A DNA stretch of 39,232 nucleotides, taken from contig JAIROK010000002.1 in assembly GCA_031257555.1 (NCBI GenBank), forward strand, positions 1-39,232, written 5' to 3'. The first letter of the stretch is position 1; every line of letters starts with the position of its first letter. Origin of the DNA: Campylobacteraceae bacterium (GTDB lineage: Bacteria > Campylobacterota > Campylobacteria > Campylobacterales > Campylobacteraceae). The position numbers and the translations under genes were made by a program. This document shows positions 15,652 to 26,436 of the stretch, in pieces. Under the pieces are notes generated by a model that did no database searches, was not told where the DNA came from, and saw nothing but the letters and a program-made list of their open reading frames with translations.

Positions 15652-15675
15652 CTTGATTGTTTAAAAGGATTTATG

Positions 15676-16308
15676 ATGAAAAAAACAGTTATTTTATCAA
15701 TAGCTTTAATATTATCTTTTGGCGGCTGTGGTAATAAAAAAGATTCTAATACCGATATCTCTAAAAATATAACAAATCCTCCAGTTATTACACCAACTCC
15801 CGAATATAGCTGCGAAGGAGGAGATACAGTAAATGGTTTTACACTTCCTGCTTGTCCTGATCAAAAACTAAACGATTCAACTCTTCTTGGCATAGACGCA
15901 AACGATAACGGCGTAAGAGATGATGTTGAAAGATGGCTCATCATAAGATATAAAGACCACCATAAGATAGTTACGGAGATAGGGTTTCAAGCAGACAGAG
16001 CACGTCGATTTATGTTTGTAAATCCTGATAAGCCTGAAGAGGCAAGACAGCTTATCAATGGAGCGCAAAGTTGCAATAGCTATTTTGAACATTATGCAGA
16101 TTTATACAATGAACCCATCTTGATTGATCATGATATCATAACTTCTACCGCTTATAAAACAATTCAATTAAACACAGAACAAAGAATAAAAGCATATCTG
16201 GATTACGATAGAAAGCTATCGGGTGGGGTATATAAACTTCCTCACATAGACGAAAAAAAAGCTTTCTGCGACTTTGATGTTGACGCTCTTTTAAAGGAAA
16301 CAAGATGA
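15676..16308 (+). CDS. Lipoprotein with a calcium-loop-like motif, unknown function
   Basis: I do not recognise a named family. The 210-residue product has a lipoprotein signal ending FGGC (Cys18), then a Pro/Thr/Asn-rich linker. The rest is compact, with cysteines in YSCEGG, LPACPD, QSCNSY and AFCDFD. Residues 74-85 (DANDNGVRDDVE) look like an EF-hand or thrombospondin-type calcium loop. A second ATG lies one codon upstream at 15673, but the start at 15676 has better spacing from AAGGA. The stop overlaps the ATG of the giant gene (ATGA), so the lipoprotein is probably its partner or anchor. Confidence 0.8.
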   Translation: MKKTVILSIALILSFGGCGNKKDSNTDISKNITNPPVITPTPEYSCEGGDTVNGFTLPACPDQKLNDSTLLGIDANDNGVRDDVERWLIIRYKDHHKIVTEIGFQADRARRFMFVNPDKPEEARQLINGAQSCNSYFEHYADLYNEPILIDHDIITSTAYKTIQLNTEQRIKAYLDYDRKLSGGVYKLPHIDEKKAFCDFDVDALLKETR

Positions 16309-19300
16309 AAAAATTATTCTTAATTTTAACATTTTTATTTATTCCTTTTTATTTAAATGCTCAAACTATAGTAATTGATGAACGTATAAATGATATATAC
16401 TTCGCTAACGGAATAATGAATACGGAAGAAGATGCTTGGAAGTCGTCAAGTTTATTAGAAAAAGCTACTCTCAAAGACATCTACAACGGTGATATTGTCT
16501 CCATGAAGCGCGAAACTGACTTCAAACTTCTTTACAATCACACTTATGGTTTATACGCAGATAAACTCGAAGCTTTCAATCAAAAGAAAGCAGAACATAA
16601 ATATTTTTGGATAGTTATGGAGGCTTTTATATCCATAGCAGGTAAAACAACAAAAGCAAGTATATTTACAGATGCTGCAAAAGATGAGATAGCCGATATG
16701 ATAGCCCAAGAGGTATTAAATGCATTAAAAGAGGGAGTTATCACATATGGTTTAGAAATAATAGACCAGGAACAACTCAAAAATGTTATAAGCGCATTAG
16801 AAAAGAATTATTTAAAAGATAAAACAGCAGCAAGTTTGTGGAGTGCGATCAGCGCAGCAAGCGATATACTGCAAAATATGGATTTAAATAAACAGTTTGA
16901 CGCTCTTACAGCAAGTATCTCATCAGGTTATCAAGCTATCATTGTAGCTCACTCTGAAGGAAATTTCTTTGCTAATGATTTGGATGAAAAACTAAATAGA
17001 GATGGCAAATCATGGATGAAGCAATACATCAAAGCCATATCAATATCAAATCCGGCAAATAAAATTCCATTTGGAGGTTCTCATATAACTTATGACAATG
17101 ACCCGATCACGATATGGCTTGATAGAGCAGAGCCAAGCATTCCAAATCCTTTGCGCTATAGAAAGTTTTACTCACAATACAATTATAACGGAACTTTATC
17201 GGACGAGGATGTTTTGGATATTATAAAAAGTATCTATTCCATGTCTATGCCTGAAGAGTGTGCTGTTGTACTTGGATTTTACTTTGAAGAGGATATATCA
17301 TCTTCGTGTTACAACAATGCCGGCATAGCATTATTTGATATAGCAAATGCAAAATTCAATACCTTTGAGTACTATATGCAAGAACAATTTGTGTCAGATA
17401 TCGGAACCGTACACAAAAATCCTTCAAGGGAATATATAACCAATTTTTTGTCCAAAAGTATAACCGCATTTAGGACAGCGCCTTCACAATGGAAACTTAA
17501 AAAGAAAAACAATAATTGTCCGGCAAGCTGCAGCGATAAAAAAAGAGAAATAGAGCATAAATACAGCAAAGCAGTCAATGATATGATATCTGCTTCACAG
17601 CTTAAAGTTTATCCATTTTCCGAAAGTGGAAAATTATATCCGTTAGAGGGTTGGTATGCAGGCGATTTCATAGTGAGTTCAGATAATGATTATGCAAAAG
17701 CTTTTAGTATAGAAGGTGGAGTTGTTGTCATGGGCAACATAACGGAGAGTAAGGGCATTTGCTATGAGTTAAAAACTATCGAAAATGATAAACCTGCAAA
17801 GCTTTTGGGAACAATCAAAAAAGATGAAGCTCAAAAGCCAACAGAACCGACAAGCGGCTATGTGGAAGTCAGTCTTAGCTGGACAAATGCTGATATCGAT
17901 ATGGACTTGAAAGTTAGTTTTCCGGGTGTACATGATATACAAGATGAGTGCCAACTTATGGAGCATTTTTACACTTTAGACGACAGAGATGTAACTCCAG
18001 GACTTTATCCGATATATATTACTTATGAGGCAAATACGACTTTAAACACATCGGTAAAAGAGATGCAAGATATCGTAGTAACCATCAAAGTTCCGGGAGC
18101 TACGGAAGCGAGGACTGTAAACCTTAAAACTATAGATTCTTCCAGTCATATAGCAGATATAAAGGTCGAAGAGAGAAAGGTAGAGGTTGTCTTAAGAGAC
18201 AATTTTCAAAAGAGCAGCACGGTTTTGTATTATCGTCCTGTAAGCGAATATAGTGTAAGCGGAAATGCAGGTTACAGCGGAGGATATAACAGTACACTCA
18301 GTAGCAGCGGAAGCTGGACATCTACATATGTTTCGCCTCCGATTAAAGATTATATTTACTCTATCATTTGGCATATATCACAAGCATTGCTTGGACCATT
18401 GAGCGGAGCAAATATCAATGTTTATGCGCTTGAAGATTATAACTTGATTACAAATAAAGGTTCAAATCCTGTATATTCGGGTATTTCTTCATATGGTTCA
18501 TCTATATATACGGCGGGCGTTATAAATGTGCCAAGAGAGATAACGGACTCTTTAGACGACGATAAGCTTTACATTATCGAAGCAAAAGGCGGAATGGATA
18601 TAGATGTGAACGACGATAAAGTATTTGACGCAAATCCTGTTGTCAATACTGGAACGATAAGAGCCGTAACAAGCGGGAGTGCGCTTAAAAACATAGGATT
18701 TAAACTAAATATCTTAACGGAGATGGCATATCAAATCTCTAAAGAGCATTATGACAAGAACGATATTTCAAGATTTATAAATAAAAGCGACGAAGCGGTA
18801 AAGTGCCTTTTAAACAGCGATATAAACCTCGATAATGTCACAAATACTATAGACGCTTTATACTTTACGCCTTACAGCGATATGGATAAATTGTATAGAA
18901 ATTATCGCAGCGAATTTATGCCTATTATAAATAAAATCCATAATGGCGGTGATATATACAAGGACAGTTTTAAACTGTATGCTAAACCTTTGGTAGCAGG
19001 CGGATATTTTAGCATAAATGAAGATGCTCCTGTAGGAACAATTATCGGCAAGATGGAGACGGATTGTGTCAGCGAGAGTCCTGTGTATCTGTTTACTTTG
19101 AGCGGAACAGGAAGTGAAAACTTTGAAGTAGATGGCGAGGGAAATCTCAAAGTTGCCAAACCGCTTGTTTATGAAGATAGAAGGATATATCATTTTTCTG
19201 TCATAGGTACGAACGCTTACGGCGATTCTCCTGCCAAACCTGTTTATATCACTGTTACTGCTGATAATTCACCGGTGATAACAAGTACATTAACAAGTTA

Positions 19301-22016
19301 TGTTTTTGAAAATATGCCAAACGGTTCGCATATGGGGACGATAAGCGTAAACGATATGGGTTATCCTATAACGAGTATGAGGCTTGAAGGATTTGGAGCT
19401 GAATACTTTAGTATAGATAATAACGGCAGAATAACTGTAGTGCATGGTGAAAATATAACTTTAAGCGATAAAGTTTATAATTTAAGAGTTATAGCCTCAA
19501 ACACTTTTGGTGACAGCGCGTCTTCACCCGTTACATTTACTATACATGACGATATACCTGTCATAGTAAAAGATATTTCTATAACGATAAAAGATAATAT
19601 CGCAGATGGTACGGTCATAGGAAGACCCTCTTATTATCCCGGACTTTCAAATATAAAAGAGTTTAAGCTTGAAGGGTATGGTGCTGAAAACTTCAACGTT
19701 AGTGCAGACGGAACCATAAGAGTTGCGCAAAGTGCCAATATAACGATTAATAATTCCCCTTATCGTTTATACATATCTGCTGAAAATGAACAGGGTATCA
19801 GTGAGCCGAAAACAGTAACTATAAATGTCATATCCTCACAAGTTGACAACATCGTATCTCTTTCCAGCTTTAGCGCAAATATATACGATAGTGCTGGTAA
19901 TAACTTTGTTGTTGGAAAGATAGCGTACAGTTACGGATATACTCCGCCAATAGCATTTAGTCTAAGCGGTGCGGGAAGCGAAAGATTTAGTATAAATTCC
20001 AATGGCGTTATAACTTTGATAGACAATACAAATCTAAACGCGGGAGATGTATTTGACCTTGAGGCAAACGCTTCAAATGAATATTTCTCAAGTACAAAAT
20101 CTAAAGTAAAGATAACGGTCATTGAAGATATGCCGCATTTATATGATTTTAGCGTTTCAATTGTAGAAGGTTTGGAAGGAGGTACCGCTATAGGCAAAGT
20201 GGGATACTCTTATGGGATAAATCGGATAGTAGAGTTTGAAATCATAGGGAACGATGATTTTACGATAGATAATAGTGGAATTATAAAAATAAAAGAGGGA
20301 GCCGTTATAGACTATGACGTTAAAAATCTGTACACATTTACTATTAAAGGTGTCAATGCTGTCGGCAAAATGACACAAAGCAGCGCTTCTGTTAGAATCA
20401 TAGACGATGCTCCTGTGTTGACGAACACCGTGCTAAGTATAATGGAAAACTCTTATGGGGGAGAAGTCGTAGGATATGTGAAAGTAAGTTCAAATGGTAA
20501 AAGCGTTATAACGTCATTTGCTCTAAGCGGTGAAGGAGCGGAAAAATTTAACATAAACGAGCAAGGACTTATAAGGCTTGGAATCGGAGCAGAGATAGAC
20601 TACGAGACAAAAAGCGTTTATAATTTGAGGGTAGTTGCTATAAATTCTCACGATACGAGCAATGAAGCAAACGTAACCATAAACGTTGTAAATGCGCCTG
20701 ATCAAGAACCTGTACTCATTCCAACTATGCTATATATGGATGAAAACTCGCCTGCCGGTACGACAGTGGGAAATATAGGCGTGTATTCTAACGGAGCGGA
20801 CGCTATAGTTTCGTTTGTCATAGAGGGTGTTAACAGCGATTGGTTTGATATAGACGATACTGGCAAAATAACCGTAGGTGAAAATGCAGTTTTAGATTAT
20901 GAAAAGAAAAAAACTTTTAATCTGAAAGTAAAAGCTACAAATAGTTACGGTTATAGTGCGCTTACGGATTTGACGATAAATTTAAATGATTTACCCGATA
21001 CCCCTCCGACCATAATATCAACGACGCTTTATGTAGATGAAAATGTACCTAAAGGTTCTTTTGTTGGACAACTTCGAGTGTACGGAGCTGGTTCTTCTAT
21101 CACTTCCATTGAATTTACGGGAGACGGCAGTGAGAATTTTAAAGTGTATGCTAACGGTACTGTTGTGACAGTAAAAGATTTGGACTATGAGCAGAAGACA
21201 AGCTATAGTTTTATAGCAACAGCAAGTAATGAGTTTTTTACAAGCAGCGCTGCAAATGTAGATATTCGTATTAATAATTTGCCGGATAGTCCTCCTATAT
21301 TAAATGATACGAGTCTTAGCATTTATAGAGAGACTCCTGTAAATAAAATGATAGGAGTTATATCGGTAAGTTCGACTATACACTGCGGTATAACAGGATA
21401 TGTGATAGATGACAACTCAGTATTTAGCATAAGAGATAGCGGAGAAGTTTATACAAATGCTGCTATAACCGAAAAAAGCAATTATACTGTGAATGTGTAT
21501 GCCAAAAGTTCATGTGGTGATAGCAATATTGTAAAGTTGACGGTAAATACGCAAAGCAGGATTATCGGTCAATTTACTAAAAGTATTTGCGATATCATTC
21601 TCTCATCAGATGATACGAAAGTATTTATGACTGATTATAGTGGCGGCAATTTGAGCATAGTCGATGTGAGCAACCCTGCAAATCCAACGCTTATCAGTTC
21701 AATCAATGTTGGAAAGTATACTTGCGGCATAGCTCTCTCATTAGATGACACAAAAGCATTTGTGACTAATTTTTATGATGGTAATTTGAAGATAATCGAT
21801 GTGAGTGACCCTGAAAATCCAATACTTATCAGTTTAATCCATGTTGGAAATGATGTTCAAAATATCGTTCTCTCCTCCGACAATACAAAAGCATTTGTGA
21901 CTGATTATGATGATGGCAATTTAAAAATAGTCGATGTGAACAACCCCGCAAATCCAATGCTTATCAGTTCAATCAGAGTTGGAAATTATGCTTACGACAT
22001 AGCTCTCTTCCGATGA
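16305..22016 (+). CDS. Giant exported hydrolase-like/cadherin-like/propeller protein, N-terminal part of a broken gene
   Basis: 1903 residues. A Sec signal peptide covers residues 1-19 (cleavage after NA). An alpha/beta-hydrolase-like region follows, with the nucleophile elbow AHSEG (Ser217) and a possible acid in TYDNDPI. The catalytic histidine is not obvious. SLSWTNADIDMDLKVSFPG at about residue 525 recalls DUF2135-like folds. Nine cadherin-like repeats of about 95 residues (about 890-1748) have the pattern ENxPxGTxVGxLxV...SGxGSENFxVxxxGxIxVxxxAxLDYExxxxYxLxVxAxNxxG. Then a beta-propeller begins with 45-residue blades. The frame ends in blade 4 at TGA 22014-22016 because of a 2-base deletion. 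The coding sequence continues in another frame. No sorting signal or transmembrane anchor was seen. Confidence 0.85.
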   Translation: MKKLFLILTFLFIPFYLNAQTIVIDERINDIYFANGIMNTEEDAWKSSSLLEKATLKDIYNGDIVSMKRETDFKLLYNHTYGLYADKLEAFNQKKAEHKYFWIVMEAFISIAGKTTKASIFTDAAKDEIADMIAQEVLNALKEGVITYGLEIIDQEQLKNVISALEKNYLKDKTAASLWSAISAASDILQNMDLNKQFDALTASISSGYQAIIVAHSEGNFFANDLDEKLNRDGKSWMKQYIKAISISNPANKIPFGGSHITYDNDPITIWLDRAEPSIPNPLRYRKFYSQYNYNGTLSDEDVLDIIKSIYSMSMPEECAVVLGFYFEEDISSSCYNNAGIALFDIANAKFNTFEYYMQEQFVSDIGTVHKNPSREYITNFLSKSITAFRTAPSQWKLKKKNNNCPASCSDKKREIEHKYSKAVNDMISASQLKVYPFSESGKLYPLEGWYAGDFIVSSDNDYAKAFSIEGGVVVMGNITESKGICYELKTIENDKPAKLLGTIKKDEAQKPTEPTSGYVEVSLSWTNADIDMDLKVSFPGVHDIQDECQLMEHFYTLDDRDVTPGLYPIYITYEANTTLNTSVKEMQDIVVTIKVPGATEARTVNLKTIDSSSHIADIKVEERKVEVVLRDNFQKSSTVLYYRPVSEYSVSGNAGYSGGYNSTLSSSGSWTSTYVSPPIKDYIYSIIWHISQALLGPLSGANINVYALEDYNLITNKGSNPVYSGISSYGSSIYTAGVINVPREITDSLDDDKLYIIEAKGGMDIDVNDDKVFDANPVVNTGTIRAVTSGSALKNIGFKLNILTEMAYQISKEHYDKNDISRFINKSDEAVKCLLNSDINLDNVTNTIDALYFTPYSDMDKLYRNYRSEFMPIINKIHNGGDIYKDSFKLYAKPLVAGGYFSINEDAPVGTIIGKMETDCVSESPVYLFTLSGTGSENFEVDGEGNLKVAKPLVYEDRRIYHFSVIGTNAYGDSPAKPVYITVTADNSPVITSTLTSYVFENMPNGSHMGTISVNDMGYPITSMRLEGFGAEYFSIDNNGRITVVHGENITLSDKVYNLRVIASNTFGDSASSPVTFTIHDDIPVIVKDISITIKDNIADGTVIGRPSYYPGLSNIKEFKLEGYGAENFNVSADGTIRVAQSANITINNSPYRLYISAENEQGISEPKTVTINVISSQVDNIVSLSSFSANIYDSAGNNFVVGKIAYSYGYTPPIAFSLSGAGSERFSINSNGVITLIDNTNLNAGDVFDLEANASNEYFSSTKSKVKITVIEDMPHLYDFSVSIVEGLEGGTAIGKVGYSYGINRIVEFEIIGNDDFTIDNSGIIKIKEGAVIDYDVKNLYTFTIKGVNAVGKMTQSSASVRIIDDAPVLTNTVLSIMENSYGGEVVGYVKVSSNGKSVITSFALSGEGAEKFNINEQGLIRLGIGAEIDYETKSVYNLRVVAINSHDTSNEANVTINVVNAPDQEPVLIPTMLYMDENSPAGTTVGNIGVYSNGADAIVSFVIEGVNSDWFDIDDTGKITVGENAVLDYEKKKTFNLKVKATNSYGYSALTDLTINLNDLPDTPPTIISTTLYVDENVPKGSFVGQLRVYGAGSSITSIEFTGDGSENFKVYANGTVVTVKDLDYEQKTSYSFIATASNEFFTSSAANVDIRINNLPDSPPILNDTSLSIYRETPVNKMIGVISVSSTIHCGITGYVIDDNSVFSIRDSGEVYTNAAITEKSNYTVNVYAKSSCGDSNIVKLTVNTQSRIIGQFTKSICDIILSSDDTKVFMTDYSGGNLSIVDVSNPANPTLISSINVGKYTCGIALSLDDTKAFVTNFYDGNLKIIDVSDPENPILISLIHVGNDVQNIVLSSDNTKAFVTDYDDGNLKIVDVNNPANPMLISSIRVGNYAYDIALFR
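18979..21550 (+). repeat. Nine tandem cadherin-like repeats
   Basis: The repeats are about 95 codons each and diverged from each other in DNA, joined by short linkers such as LPDTPPTI or LPDSPPIL. Each has one 'SGxGSENF' turn and ends in an 'SNxFGxSxxxxVxIxV' strand. The ninth (from about 21280) differs. It has Cys in TIHCGITG and SSCGDSN, and lacks the ENxPxG and LDYE motifs. Confidence 0.8.
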
Positions 22017-22490
22017 TACAAAAGCATTTGTGACTGATTATGATGACGGCAATTTGAAAATAGTCGATGTGAACAACCCCGCAAATCCAATGCTTATCAG
22101 TTAAATCAGAGTTGGAAATTATGCTTACGACATAGCTCTCTCTTCCGATGATACAAAAGCATTTGTGACTGATTATTATAATGGCAATTTGACGATAGTC
22201 GATGTGAGCAACCCTGCAAATCCAATACTTATCAGTTCAATCAAATTCAAAGGTGGTACTCACGACGTAATTCTTTCATCAGATGATACAAAAGTGTTTG
22301 TGACTGGTTATTATGATAGCAATTTGAACATAGTCGATGTGAACAATCTTGCAAATCCAATGCTTATTGGTTCAATCAATGTCGGAAATTATATTCGCGA
22401 CATAACCCTATCCTCTGACAATACAAAAGCATTTGTAGCAACAGACGGAGGTTTAATAATAATAGACATTGAAGAATTTATCAACAATCA
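21560..22490 (+). repeat. Propeller 1: seven blades of about 45 codons
   Basis: The blades follow the consensus SSDDTKAFVTDYDDGNLKIV followed by DVSNPANPILISSINVG, on a 135-base period. This is an LVIVD/YVTN-type propeller. Counting the damaged blade 4 gives seven blades, closing with ATDGGLIIIDIEEF. Blade DNA is very similar between copies, especially blades 3 and 4. Confidence 0.8.
22002..22104 (+). pseudogene. Double lesion that splits the giant gene
   Basis: Blade 4 of the first propeller carries two defects. At 22002-22010 the sequence GCTCTCTTC lacks one CT compared with GCTCTCTCTTC at the same place one repeat later (22134-22144), which shifts the frame. In the shifted frame the repeat continues to AGT TAA at 22099-22104, where neighbouring repeats read AGT TCA, so a nonsense change is also present. 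The spacing of repeat starts (GCATTTGTGA at 21891, 22024 and 22159) is 133 and then 135 bases. Elsewhere it is 135, which confirms the 2-base loss. Confidence 0.85.
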
Positions 22491-25400
22491 GCTGCCGCCT
22501 ATCATTCAAAGCGGTTTAACATTGCAAGTCAATGAAAACTCTCTTGGCGGAACATTTGTAGGACAGTTGAATGTATATAATGCTTATACAATAAATTTAT
22601 CAGGTACAGGAAGCGAAAATTTCAAAGTTTATAATAACGGAACTATAGTTGTAGCCGAAGGGGCAAATTTGGACTATGAAAGTAAAACCGGATACGCACT
22701 AAAAGCAACAGCTGTAAATGACTATGGCAATAGCAATACAGTCAGTATTTATATAAACATAAACAATTTACTTGATATTTTGCCTGTTTTGCAAGACACT
22801 CATCTTGATATATATAAAATAACACCTGCAGATACAACTATAGGAGTTATCAAAGTAACCTCGTCCATGCATTGCAATGTGATAGAGTATATATCGGATG
22901 ACAACTCCATGTTTGGGGTAAGAGACAATGGCGATGTTTATACAAAGACCATTACGTCAAAAGGAAATTATACTATAAACGTATATGCTCTAAGCAGCTG
23001 CGGCAATAGCAATACCGTGAAATTAACAATAAGTGCTGATAACATAATGGGTTCAATAAATAGTATGCAAGCTTACAATGTCGTTCTCTCTTCTGATGAT
23101 ACAAAAGCGTTTGTGACTGATTGTTTCGGCAACAATTTGAATATAATTGATGTGAGTAACCCTGCAAATCCAATACTTATCAGTTCAATCCATGTCGGAA
23201 ATTTTCGTGGCGTAACTCTCTCTTCAGATGACACAAGGGTATTTGTGGTTGATGATGACGGCAATTTGAAAATAGTCGATGTGAACAACCCCGCAAATCC
23301 AATACTTATCAGTTCAATTTATGTTGGAGGTTATATTTACGATGTCGTTCTCTCCTCCGACAATACAAAAGCATTTGTGAATGATTATCTCGGCGGCAAT
23401 TTGACGATAGTTATTGTGAGCAACCCTGCAAATCCAATACTTATCAGTTCAATCTATGTTGGAGATACTTATGGTGTAACTCTCTCATCTGATGATACAA
23501 AAGTGTTTGTAGTTGGCAGTAGGAATTTGAAAATAGTCGATGTGAGCAACCCTGCAAATCCAATACTTATCAGTTCAATCAATGTTGGAAATTATGCTTA
23601 CGACATAGCTCTCTCCTCCGACAATACAAAAGCATTTGTGACTAATTATGATAATGGCAATTTGAAAATAGTTGATGTGAGTAACCCTGCAAATCCAATA
23701 CTTATCAGTTCAATCGAAGTTGCAGTATTATATTATGCTCACGATGTAACTCTCTCCTTCGATGATACAAAGGCATTTGTGACTAATTATGATAATGGCA
23801 ATTTGAAAATAGTTGATGTGAGCAACCCTGCAAATCCAATACTTATCAGTTCAATCAATGTTGGAAATTATGCTTACGACACAGCTCTCTCCTCCGACAA
23901 TACAAAAGCATTTGTAGCAACAGACGGAGGTTTAATAATAATAGACATTGAAGAATTTATCAACAATCAGCTGCCGCCTATCATTAAAAACGATTTAACA
24001 TTGCAAGTCAATGAAAACTCTCCTGGCGGAACATTTGTGGGACAGTTGGCTGTATATAATTTGGATAGTGTGACATCTATAGTTTTAAGCGGATATGGCG
24101 CTGACAATTTCAAGGTTTATAATAACGGAACTATAGTCGTAGCCGAAAGGGCAAATTTAAACTATGAGAGGCAATCAACATATGTTATAAAAGCAACAGC
24201 TGCAAATAGTTATGGATATAGTGCGCTTGTTGATTTGACGATAAACTTGAATGATTTACCCGATACTCCGCCTGTTGTTGCAGATTTTCAAGATTTTTCA
24301 GTCGATGAGGGTTCTCTTGGCGGGACAATCGTAGGAAAACTTATTATAAATAATGTTTTTTCCCCGATAACCTCTATAAAATTGAGCGGCAACGGAGCTG
24401 AAAAATTTAGAGTTGATAATAACGGAACTATAACCGTAGCCGAAGGGGCAAATCTCAATTATGAAATAAGTAATATTTATAAGTTATATGTAATTGCTTA
24501 CAATGAATTTGGAGCAAGTAGTATGGTATATATATCTATATTTGTTAATAATTTCCCAAATCCGTATATTTCGTATAGTTGGTTTGATATTAATGAGAAT
24601 TTACCTTCGGGAACAGTTGTAGGCAAACTAACCGTTGAAGATTACGGCAGCCCTATCGCCTCAATATATTTTGAAGGTATAGGAAGCGAAAACTTTGATA
24701 TAGCTCTTGATGGAACGATAATCGTGGCAAACAATGCTATTTTGGATTATGAAACAAAACGATACTATAATTTTAGAGTTTTTGCGGTTAATAATTATGG
24801 AAAAAGTGATGGTACGGTAATATCTATATATTTAAACAATATTCCGGATTCTCCTCCTGTTGTATCTGGAGCCATCATAAAACTTGATAATAACGCTCAA
24901 GCTGGAGATGAAGTCGGCTATTTATCAATTTATACCGATGGCAGCGGGATAGACGATATATATCTGTCCGGTGAAGGAAGCGAGAATTTTGACATGGATT
25001 TTAGCGATTGTCATACTGGTGATTATCATTGCTCTTTATATATACGCGTGTCGGAAAGCGCCAATCTTGACTACTTCAATGATGGCATATATAAAATATA
25101 TATAAGTGTGTCTAATGAGTTTGGAAACAGCAGCGCTGATATTTGGATAGTTTCAAAAAGAGGTTCCGAGGCATTGCCGCCGGAGTTTGACAATATCACT
25201 TTTGTTACTTTTGGAGGCGATATGGAAAATGGTTATCGCATAGGCAATATATATCCGGTATCAGAAAATCACTGTGAAATAACAGATTATTTTACAGATA
25301 ATGATAAATTTACTATCCGGTGGAATTGGCAAGATAGATACATTGAAATTAGCTCTAATGAATTTATGCAAGGCGGTAAAGTCTATCATCTTAACATATA

Positions 25401-26436
25401 TGCAAATAGCACTTGTGGAGTCAGCAATGGTGCAGGCATTACGGTAGATGCAATGGATAGAACTACTGCTTTTGATGCAACCGGATATGACTATGAGTAT
25501 TTATCGTTAGTAGACAATGAAACAAAACTGTTTGTCGGCGATAGCTATAATACTAATTCTACATATGTTGTGGATTTGAAAAGCGGTGAAAGTATTCGTT
25601 TAAATTTACAAATCGGCAAAGACAAAAATGTATTATCAAGTATCGCATCAAAAGACGGTAAATATCTATATGCAGTCATTTGTGAGTATAATGTAAGTTG
25701 TGTTCTAAATATTTATGATATGAGTTCCCCTTACAGTCCTGTACTTATAGGCTTGTTTAATATGGGTTACCTTGATATGTACGATTTGAAAACGATACTG
25801 TCAAAAGACGGCAGCAAACTGTTTTTGCCAAGCAATAATACTGTTTATATAATAAATGTAAACAATCCTTATTTGCCTGAGATGATTAGTAAAATAGGTT
25901 CATATAATGAGATAACGATGGTATCAATATCAAAAGATGAAAAAGTCATGTATATCATAGGGTATGATAATTCCGGTTCAATTGCTATGCAAAGATATGA
26001 TATAAGTTCTTTGTATAATCCCGTCAGACTGGCTCCGATCTCTTTTAAAAACTCATATGCGATCATCGGCATGTCTGAGGATGATAATTTAGTTTATACA
26101 TCAGGCAAATATGGGTTGGCAACTTATGATGTATCTGATGCCAATAATCTTACACTGGTTAATTTGTATAGCAGACCAGGATCTTATTATCATATGGAGT
26201 ATATGAATGTTCCAATAACTTTAAATAACAACAAGTTGCTTGTTAGCAGCAAAACAGGAAAACCATTTACGATATTTGATTTAAGTGATCCGAAAAAACC
26301 GTATGTTAGTGCTATAATGGCGATCAGCTCCCCATTTTATTTTTATAAAGGACTTATTTTAACGGCAGACGAGTCGAAGGTGTTTGCGTTAGGAGATAAT
26401 GTTCTAATGATGGATATTGAAGGTATTGGAAAGTAG
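22165..26436 (+). CDS. Downstream part of the broken giant protein: propellers and cadherin-like repeats
   Basis: The frame is open from 22105 to the TAG at 26434-26436. The first possible start, GTG at 22165, is mid-repeat, has no ribosome binding site and no signal peptide, so independent translation and export are unlikely. In order it encodes propeller 1 blades 5-7, cadherin-like repeat 10, the cysteine-pair repeat 11, propeller 2, repeats 12-15, cysteine-pair repeat 16 and a divergent propeller 3 that ends the protein. With the deleted CT restored and the TAA ignored, 16305-26436 is exactly 3378 codons including the stop. No further stops occur in 4.3 kb, so the damage is recent, or is an assembly error. 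Confidence 0.75.
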   Translation: MTDYYNGNLTIVDVSNPANPILISSIKFKGGTHDVILSSDDTKVFVTGYYDSNLNIVDVNNLANPMLIGSINVGNYIRDITLSSDNTKAFVATDGGLIIIDIEEFINNQLPPIIQSGLTLQVNENSLGGTFVGQLNVYNAYTINLSGTGSENFKVYNNGTIVVAEGANLDYESKTGYALKATAVNDYGNSNTVSIYININNLLDILPVLQDTHLDIYKITPADTTIGVIKVTSSMHCNVIEYISDDNSMFGVRDNGDVYTKTITSKGNYTINVYALSSCGNSNTVKLTISADNIMGSINSMQAYNVVLSSDDTKAFVTDCFGNNLNIIDVSNPANPILISSIHVGNFRGVTLSSDDTRVFVVDDDGNLKIVDVNNPANPILISSIYVGGYIYDVVLSSDNTKAFVNDYLGGNLTIVIVSNPANPILISSIYVGDTYGVTLSSDDTKVFVVGSRNLKIVDVSNPANPILISSINVGNYAYDIALSSDNTKAFVTNYDNGNLKIVDVSNPANPILISSIEVAVLYYAHDVTLSFDDTKAFVTNYDNGNLKIVDVSNPANPILISSINVGNYAYDTALSSDNTKAFVATDGGLIIIDIEEFINNQLPPIIKNDLTLQVNENSPGGTFVGQLAVYNLDSVTSIVLSGYGADNFKVYNNGTIVVAERANLNYERQSTYVIKATAANSYGYSALVDLTINLNDLPDTPPVVADFQDFSVDEGSLGGTIVGKLIINNVFSPITSIKLSGNGAEKFRVDNNGTITVAEGANLNYEISNIYKLYVIAYNEFGASSMVYISIFVNNFPNPYISYSWFDINENLPSGTVVGKLTVEDYGSPIASIYFEGIGSENFDIALDGTIIVANNAILDYETKRYYNFRVFAVNNYGKSDGTVISIYLNNIPDSPPVVSGAIIKLDNNAQAGDEVGYLSIYTDGSGIDDIYLSGEGSENFDMDFSDCHTGDYHCSLYIRVSESANLDYFNDGIYKIYISVSNEFGNSSADIWIVSKRGSEALPPEFDNITFVTFGGDMENGYRIGNIYPVSENHCEITDYFTDNDKFTIRWNWQDRYIEISSNEFMQGGKVYHLNIYANSTCGVSNGAGITVDAMDRTTAFDATGYDYEYLSLVDNETKLFVGDSYNTNSTYVVDLKSGESIRLNLQIGKDKNVLSSIASKDGKYLYAVICEYNVSCVLNIYDMSSPYSPVLIGLFNMGYLDMYDLKTILSKDGSKLFLPSNNTVYIINVNNPYLPEMISKIGSYNEITMVSISKDEKVMYIIGYDNSGSIAMQRYDISSLYNPVRLAPISFKNSYAIIGMSEDDNLVYTSGKYGLATYDVSDANNLTLVNLYSRPGSYYHMEYMNVPITLNNNKLLVSSKTGKPFTIFDLSDPKKPYVSAIMAISSPFYFYKGLILTADESKVFALGDNVLMMDIEGIGK
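22417..22569 (+). repeat. Long direct repeat, copy 1 (partner at 23896-24048)
   Basis: This 153-base stretch encodes the last propeller blade and the first strands of the following cadherin-like repeat. It is nearly identical to 23896-24048, 1479 bases (493 codons) downstream. Only a few substitutions were seen, for example in ATCATTCAAAGCGG versus ATCATTAAAAACGA. It marks an in-frame duplication of a cadherin plus propeller module. Confidence 0.8.
23041..23985 (+). repeat. Propeller 2: seven blades
   Basis: The same blade consensus as propeller 1, with the last blade again ATDGGLIIIDIEEF. Blades 5 and 6 (TNYDNGNLKIVDVSNPANPI) are almost identical in DNA. Some blades vary in length (SRN for blade 4, an extra VLYY before blade 6). 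All seven are in frame. Confidence 0.8.
23896..24048 (+). repeat. Long direct repeat, copy 2 (partner at 22417-22569)
   Basis: This is the second copy of the 153-base direct repeat, joining propeller 2 to cadherin-like repeat 12. Recombination between the copies would delete or duplicate 493 codons without changing the frame. Confidence 0.8.
25460..26433 (+). repeat. Propeller 3: diverged seven-bladed C-terminal propeller
   Basis: Seven blade cores can be followed: LFVGDS..YVVDLKS, YLYAVI..LNIYDMSSP, LFLPSN..IINVNNP, MYIIGY..QRYDISS, VYTSGK..TYDVSDA, LLVSSK..TIFDLSDP and VFALGD..MMDIEG. It is much more diverged than propellers 1 and 2. It forms the C terminus of the protein. Confidence 0.65.

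Follow-up and report, generated by a model that had tools for sequence, protein, structure and literature searches.

A frameshift and a stop codon in one blade of a repetitive β-propeller divide a 10 kb cadherin-repeat gene in a draft Campylobacteraceae genome

Introduction

Frameshifts and stop codons have been described as disrupting highly repetitive β-propellers, and one published example is a Kelch-like propeller of seven blades that carries both a frameshift and a stop (Pereira and Lupas 2022, PMC9218822). Where that paper deals with disrupted propellers, it attaches a sequencing-error caveat to them, and it calls propellers 'highly repetitive' above a median blade identity of 60%. The gene analyzed here resembles the propellers presented there in its blade identity above 60%, out-of-frame blades, local blade amplification and varying blade numbers. 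Unlike the disrupted cases described there, its LVIVD/YVTN-type propeller lies in the interior of a 10 kb gene with cadherin repeats and not near a protein terminus.

Two further systems are close to parts of this gene. The LVIVD repeat (PF08309, PMC2447325) is common to both fragments of the gene above the gathering score; the locus departs from LVIVD proteins as outlined in the family description in that the repeat is combined with cadherin repeats and occurs so in Campylobacteraceae relatives. The propeller of an archaeal surface layer protein (PDB 1l0q) matches the second propeller of our gene in sequence (4e-12) and, when compared to its model, in structure (Foldseek E 9e-16, TMq 0.80), but with 22% identity in the structural alignment and with PKD neighbors instead of the cadherin repeats found here.

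Results

A very long gene present as two open frames

We analyzed a window of 39,232 nucleotides (contig JAIROK010000002.1, labeled C93), which is one contig of a draft bin (1,479,426 bases, 136 contigs, 62.75% complete) and represents a single consensus sequence. According to the list of open reading frames and their translations, positions 16305–26436 contain a very long gene in two open frames; this and all features below lie on the forward strand. The front fragment (16305–22016, 1,903 aa) begins with a stretch that by eye resembles a signal peptide, comprises an N-terminal module, cadherin repeats and three propeller blades, and ends at a TGA stop (22014–22016). The rear fragment (22105–26436) follows in another frame, with its first GTG at 22165 and a natural stop at 26434–26436; inspection by eye revealed no export signal of its own. 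The initial annotation had noted that the 4.3 kb behind the break has no other stop, and 22105–26433 was indeed open.

Pfam searches detected cadherin repeats and LVIVD blades in both fragments, with a Cadherin match of 141.2 bits in the front fragment (cut-off 28.8) and LVIVD matches of 30.0 bits in the front and 92.8 bits in the rear fragment (gathering score 20.2). No Pfam family matched the first 632 residues of the front fragment. Within the N-terminal module (16305–18200) we observed an AHSEGN stretch, which we take to resemble a serine hydrolase nucleophile motif. The product of the large gene would be exported and is probably surface attached.

Three propeller regions were distinguished. 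The first LVIVD-type β-propeller (21560–22480) has seven blades including the one that bears the lesions, with blade matches at 21600, 21735, 21870, 22003, 22138, 22273 and 22408. The second (23038–23976) is intact and seven-bladed by its blade matches, and its structural model (pLDDT 93.8, pTM 0.91) is closed, with 28 strands forming seven four-stranded blades. Weak matches at 25480–26300 indicate a third, degenerate propeller-like region. A 90-bp exact repeat, the longest in the gene, closes both of the first two propellers (22417–22506 and 23896–23985). Median blade identity at the amino acid level was 64.7% in the first propeller (ten pairs from five blades, leaving out the lesion blade and the short last blade and with blade 3 truncated ahead of the lesion) and 70.5% in the second (15 pairs from six blades, leaving out the short last blade). 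Both values exceed 60%, and further blades lie out of frame behind a premature stop, as in the disrupted propellers already in print; we therefore assign the gene to a known kind.

Two lesions in the fourth blade

We aligned all 14 blades of the two propellers, 12 of which are full blades. Distances between the IVDV codons were multiples of three in ten of 11 intervals, including the 813-base gap between the propellers. The exception, 21927–22060, measures 133 bases and contains, at the border of blades 3 and 4 (22001–22010), a tract of three CT units where the near-identical next copy has four. This unit is thus 133 instead of 135 bases long, and the two-base CT loss proposed for blade 4 was borne out. 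The second proposed change, from TCA to TAA, was likewise found: the serine codon is TCA in ten of the 12 full blades and TTA in one (blade 2), and TAA stands only in blade 4 (22003–22137), in the original frame at 22102–22104 and, as claimed, ~95 bases from the end of the CT tract. As the TGA at 22014–22016 ends the front frame within ~10 bases of the lost CT, the TAA belongs to a frame that translation no longer follows. Sites drawn at random in pairs from the 10.1 kb gene would fall within 95 bases of each other with P ~0.019, so that the two lesions are clustered mildly, not strongly.

Intact versions in related genomes

The gene has unbroken counterparts in two relatives. G013 (JAIRXG010000018.1) encodes a single open frame of 3,380 aa, cut at its 5′ end by the contig start, and G004 (JAISAU010000023.1) one of 4,174 aa. 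Each matches both window fragments and adjoins the same downstream neighbors, of which the nearest two orthologues are 86–88% identical. These single open syntenic frames show the window gene to be one long gene that has been broken. A search of 14 genomes of the genus revealed none from the same species with either an intact or a broken copy. A homologue in another genome (G006:C82, L062:2322–4873) is itself split between two frames near window-protein residues 490–513, with a rear frame that reaches the contig end, and represents another family member with a frameshift.

Blade number and blade similarity

The initial annotation had argued that counting the lesion blade restores exactly seven blades and that this blade is consequently original and not an extra copy. 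Its first half stands, since the second propeller folds with seven blades and seven is thus a sensible number. Its second half does not follow. No other of the 66 full-blade pairs is as similar as blades 3 and 4 (95.5% identity; median 80.2%), whose near-identity exceeds one unit: it spans 159 bases, interrupted by three substitutions and the two-base gap. Such a tract makes a recent tandem copy or gene conversion likely. A 38-bp direct repeat, identical at 21971–22008 and 22104–22141, also marks this region. Moreover, relatives carry between four and eight blades: across 14 propellers from ten loci, not counting the degenerate C-terminal propellers of L052 and L053, eight gave seven matches, three gave six, and one each gave eight, five and four. 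Weak blades can escape such counting, and inspection by eye adds a seventh blade to the six matches in the first propeller of L053.

In the syntenic first propeller of G013 we counted six blade matches; folded from one sequence, this propeller gave one fair model (78.5) out of five, the others scoring 43–49. In the second propeller of the same genome (L052:6715–7641) we found eight blade matches, one of them without its initial portion, as an internal deletion in frame would leave it.

Age of the break

No further stop occurs in the 10.0 kb that the two sides of the lesions make up together. Since ~4.4% and 4.1% of possible substitutions would create one, neutral change since the loss amounts to less than ~0.7% per site (95% upper bound). 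The absence of additional stops indicates a young break, and together with the intact syntenic versions in two relatives it favors the recent decay that had been offered as one of three readings of the locus. The excess of changes at codon position 3 relative to the relatives was 2.04–2.13 before the lesion, 1.56–1.67 behind it and 4.8–5.2 for two neighbors. The lower value behind the lesion could reflect an older relaxation, but different domains are compared here and we draw no date from it.

Discussion

The data are probably best explained by one long surface-protein gene that was recently inactivated in the sequenced population. The original gene would have encoded a hydrolase-like N-terminal module, cadherin repeats, two LVIVD β-propellers and a third, degenerate one. 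Its lesion blade would itself have been copied recently from a neighboring blade or been converted by it. Loss of two bases from a four-unit CT tract would then have shifted the frame, ending translation within ~10 bases, and a second change in the same blade would have placed a stop in the old frame. If these lesions are present in the organism, what is exported would be the front fragment, whose propeller, at only three blades, could not close, and the rear fragment, behind the stop and devoid of an export signal, would probably be unused. Ordinary recent decay, of a kind already known, is the most likely reading of the break, although independent decay is somewhat unlikely to produce two null changes in a single blade and none in the rest of the gene (P ~0.019).

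This clustering could also arise if the lesions belonged to the consensus and not to most cells, which would be intact, the consensus having taken up a rare variant, the null allele of a related strain or repeated errors. We consider this rather unlikely. In its favor, the source is a draft bin of 136 contigs with 62.75% completeness, and the family is hard to assemble, as indicated by frames running off the contig end in four (L052, L055, L057 and L062) of 14 family regions. A mis-assembled repeat in the simple sense, also raised in the initial annotation, fails: a misjoin only recombines existing words, and those at the two lesions (12 bases for the CT loss, 10 bases for the TAA) each occur once in the window. 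In addition, no 53-mer of the lesion blade and no 91-mer of the gene is repeated. Longer lesion words were also found only once each in the whole bin (62.75% complete), and a donor pseudogene elsewhere in the genome was rejected at that coverage. The k119 titles of the relatives' contigs suggest assembly from short reads, in which case the reads themselves would have held the lesions, with a minor strain or repeated errors as possible sources. Seven downstream neighboring frames match relatives over essentially their full length, which shows that errors are not rife in this stretch of the contig.

Inactivation might instead be reversible. The lesion blade could be gained and lost, or overwritten by conversion from its neighbors, so that on and off forms coexist in the population. 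The identical 38-bp direct repeats lie on either side of the lesions at a distance of one unit, the length of the 133-base unit and the offset between the frames of the two halves are equal modulo three, and relatives differ in blade number. However, we saw no second form and regard such switching as improbable. In its more specific version, which we consider very improbable, the lesion blade is an off-cassette: the 133-base unit between the 38-bp repeats would break the 10 kb gene when gained and reopen it when lost, and a surface protein would be switched on and off in the population through blade number. Slippage in the CT tract gives the idea of a switchable gene no support. Dinucleotide tracts of four units are too short for usual slipped-strand switching, and the tract at the break has three units in the window and four in the neighboring copy, the latter being the longest dinucleotide tract length in the gene; the long simple repeat that marks phase-variable genes was not found at the break.

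It is extremely unlikely that both fragments are made as a two-part protein, by frameshifting or from a new start at 22165. A GTG in the rear frame does exist at that position, but the rear product would start inside blade 5 and, as judged by eye, carry no export signal, a single product would require a frameshift as well as stop bypass, and two syntenic relatives keep a single frame.

Recent inactivation of one long gene would make the locus a clean, young example of the published birth-and-decay cycle of repetitive propellers, found in an uncultured genus of Campylobacteraceae, within a large protein with cadherin repeats, and accompanied by intact syntenic relatives for comparison. Should the blade be gained and lost within a population, propeller amplification would be tied to surface-protein switching. 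For now, the locus is a broken gene of an ordinary sort from a draft genome.

Neighboring genes

Plasmid origin was considered and rejected: 16305–17500 had no match in a plasmid collection, and the upstream neighbors match the secD, secF, leucyl-tRNA synthetase and TRCF/mfd families. Directly upstream, a gene for 211 aa (15673–16308) overlaps the start of the large gene. Its product matched no Pfam family, and its NCBIfam lipoprotein matches were all below the cut-off. The gene is conserved beside N-terminal homologues in relatives, being kept at six loci with 36–64% identity, and it also adjoins stand-alone N-terminal forms of ~640 aa. It is likely to encode a functional partner.
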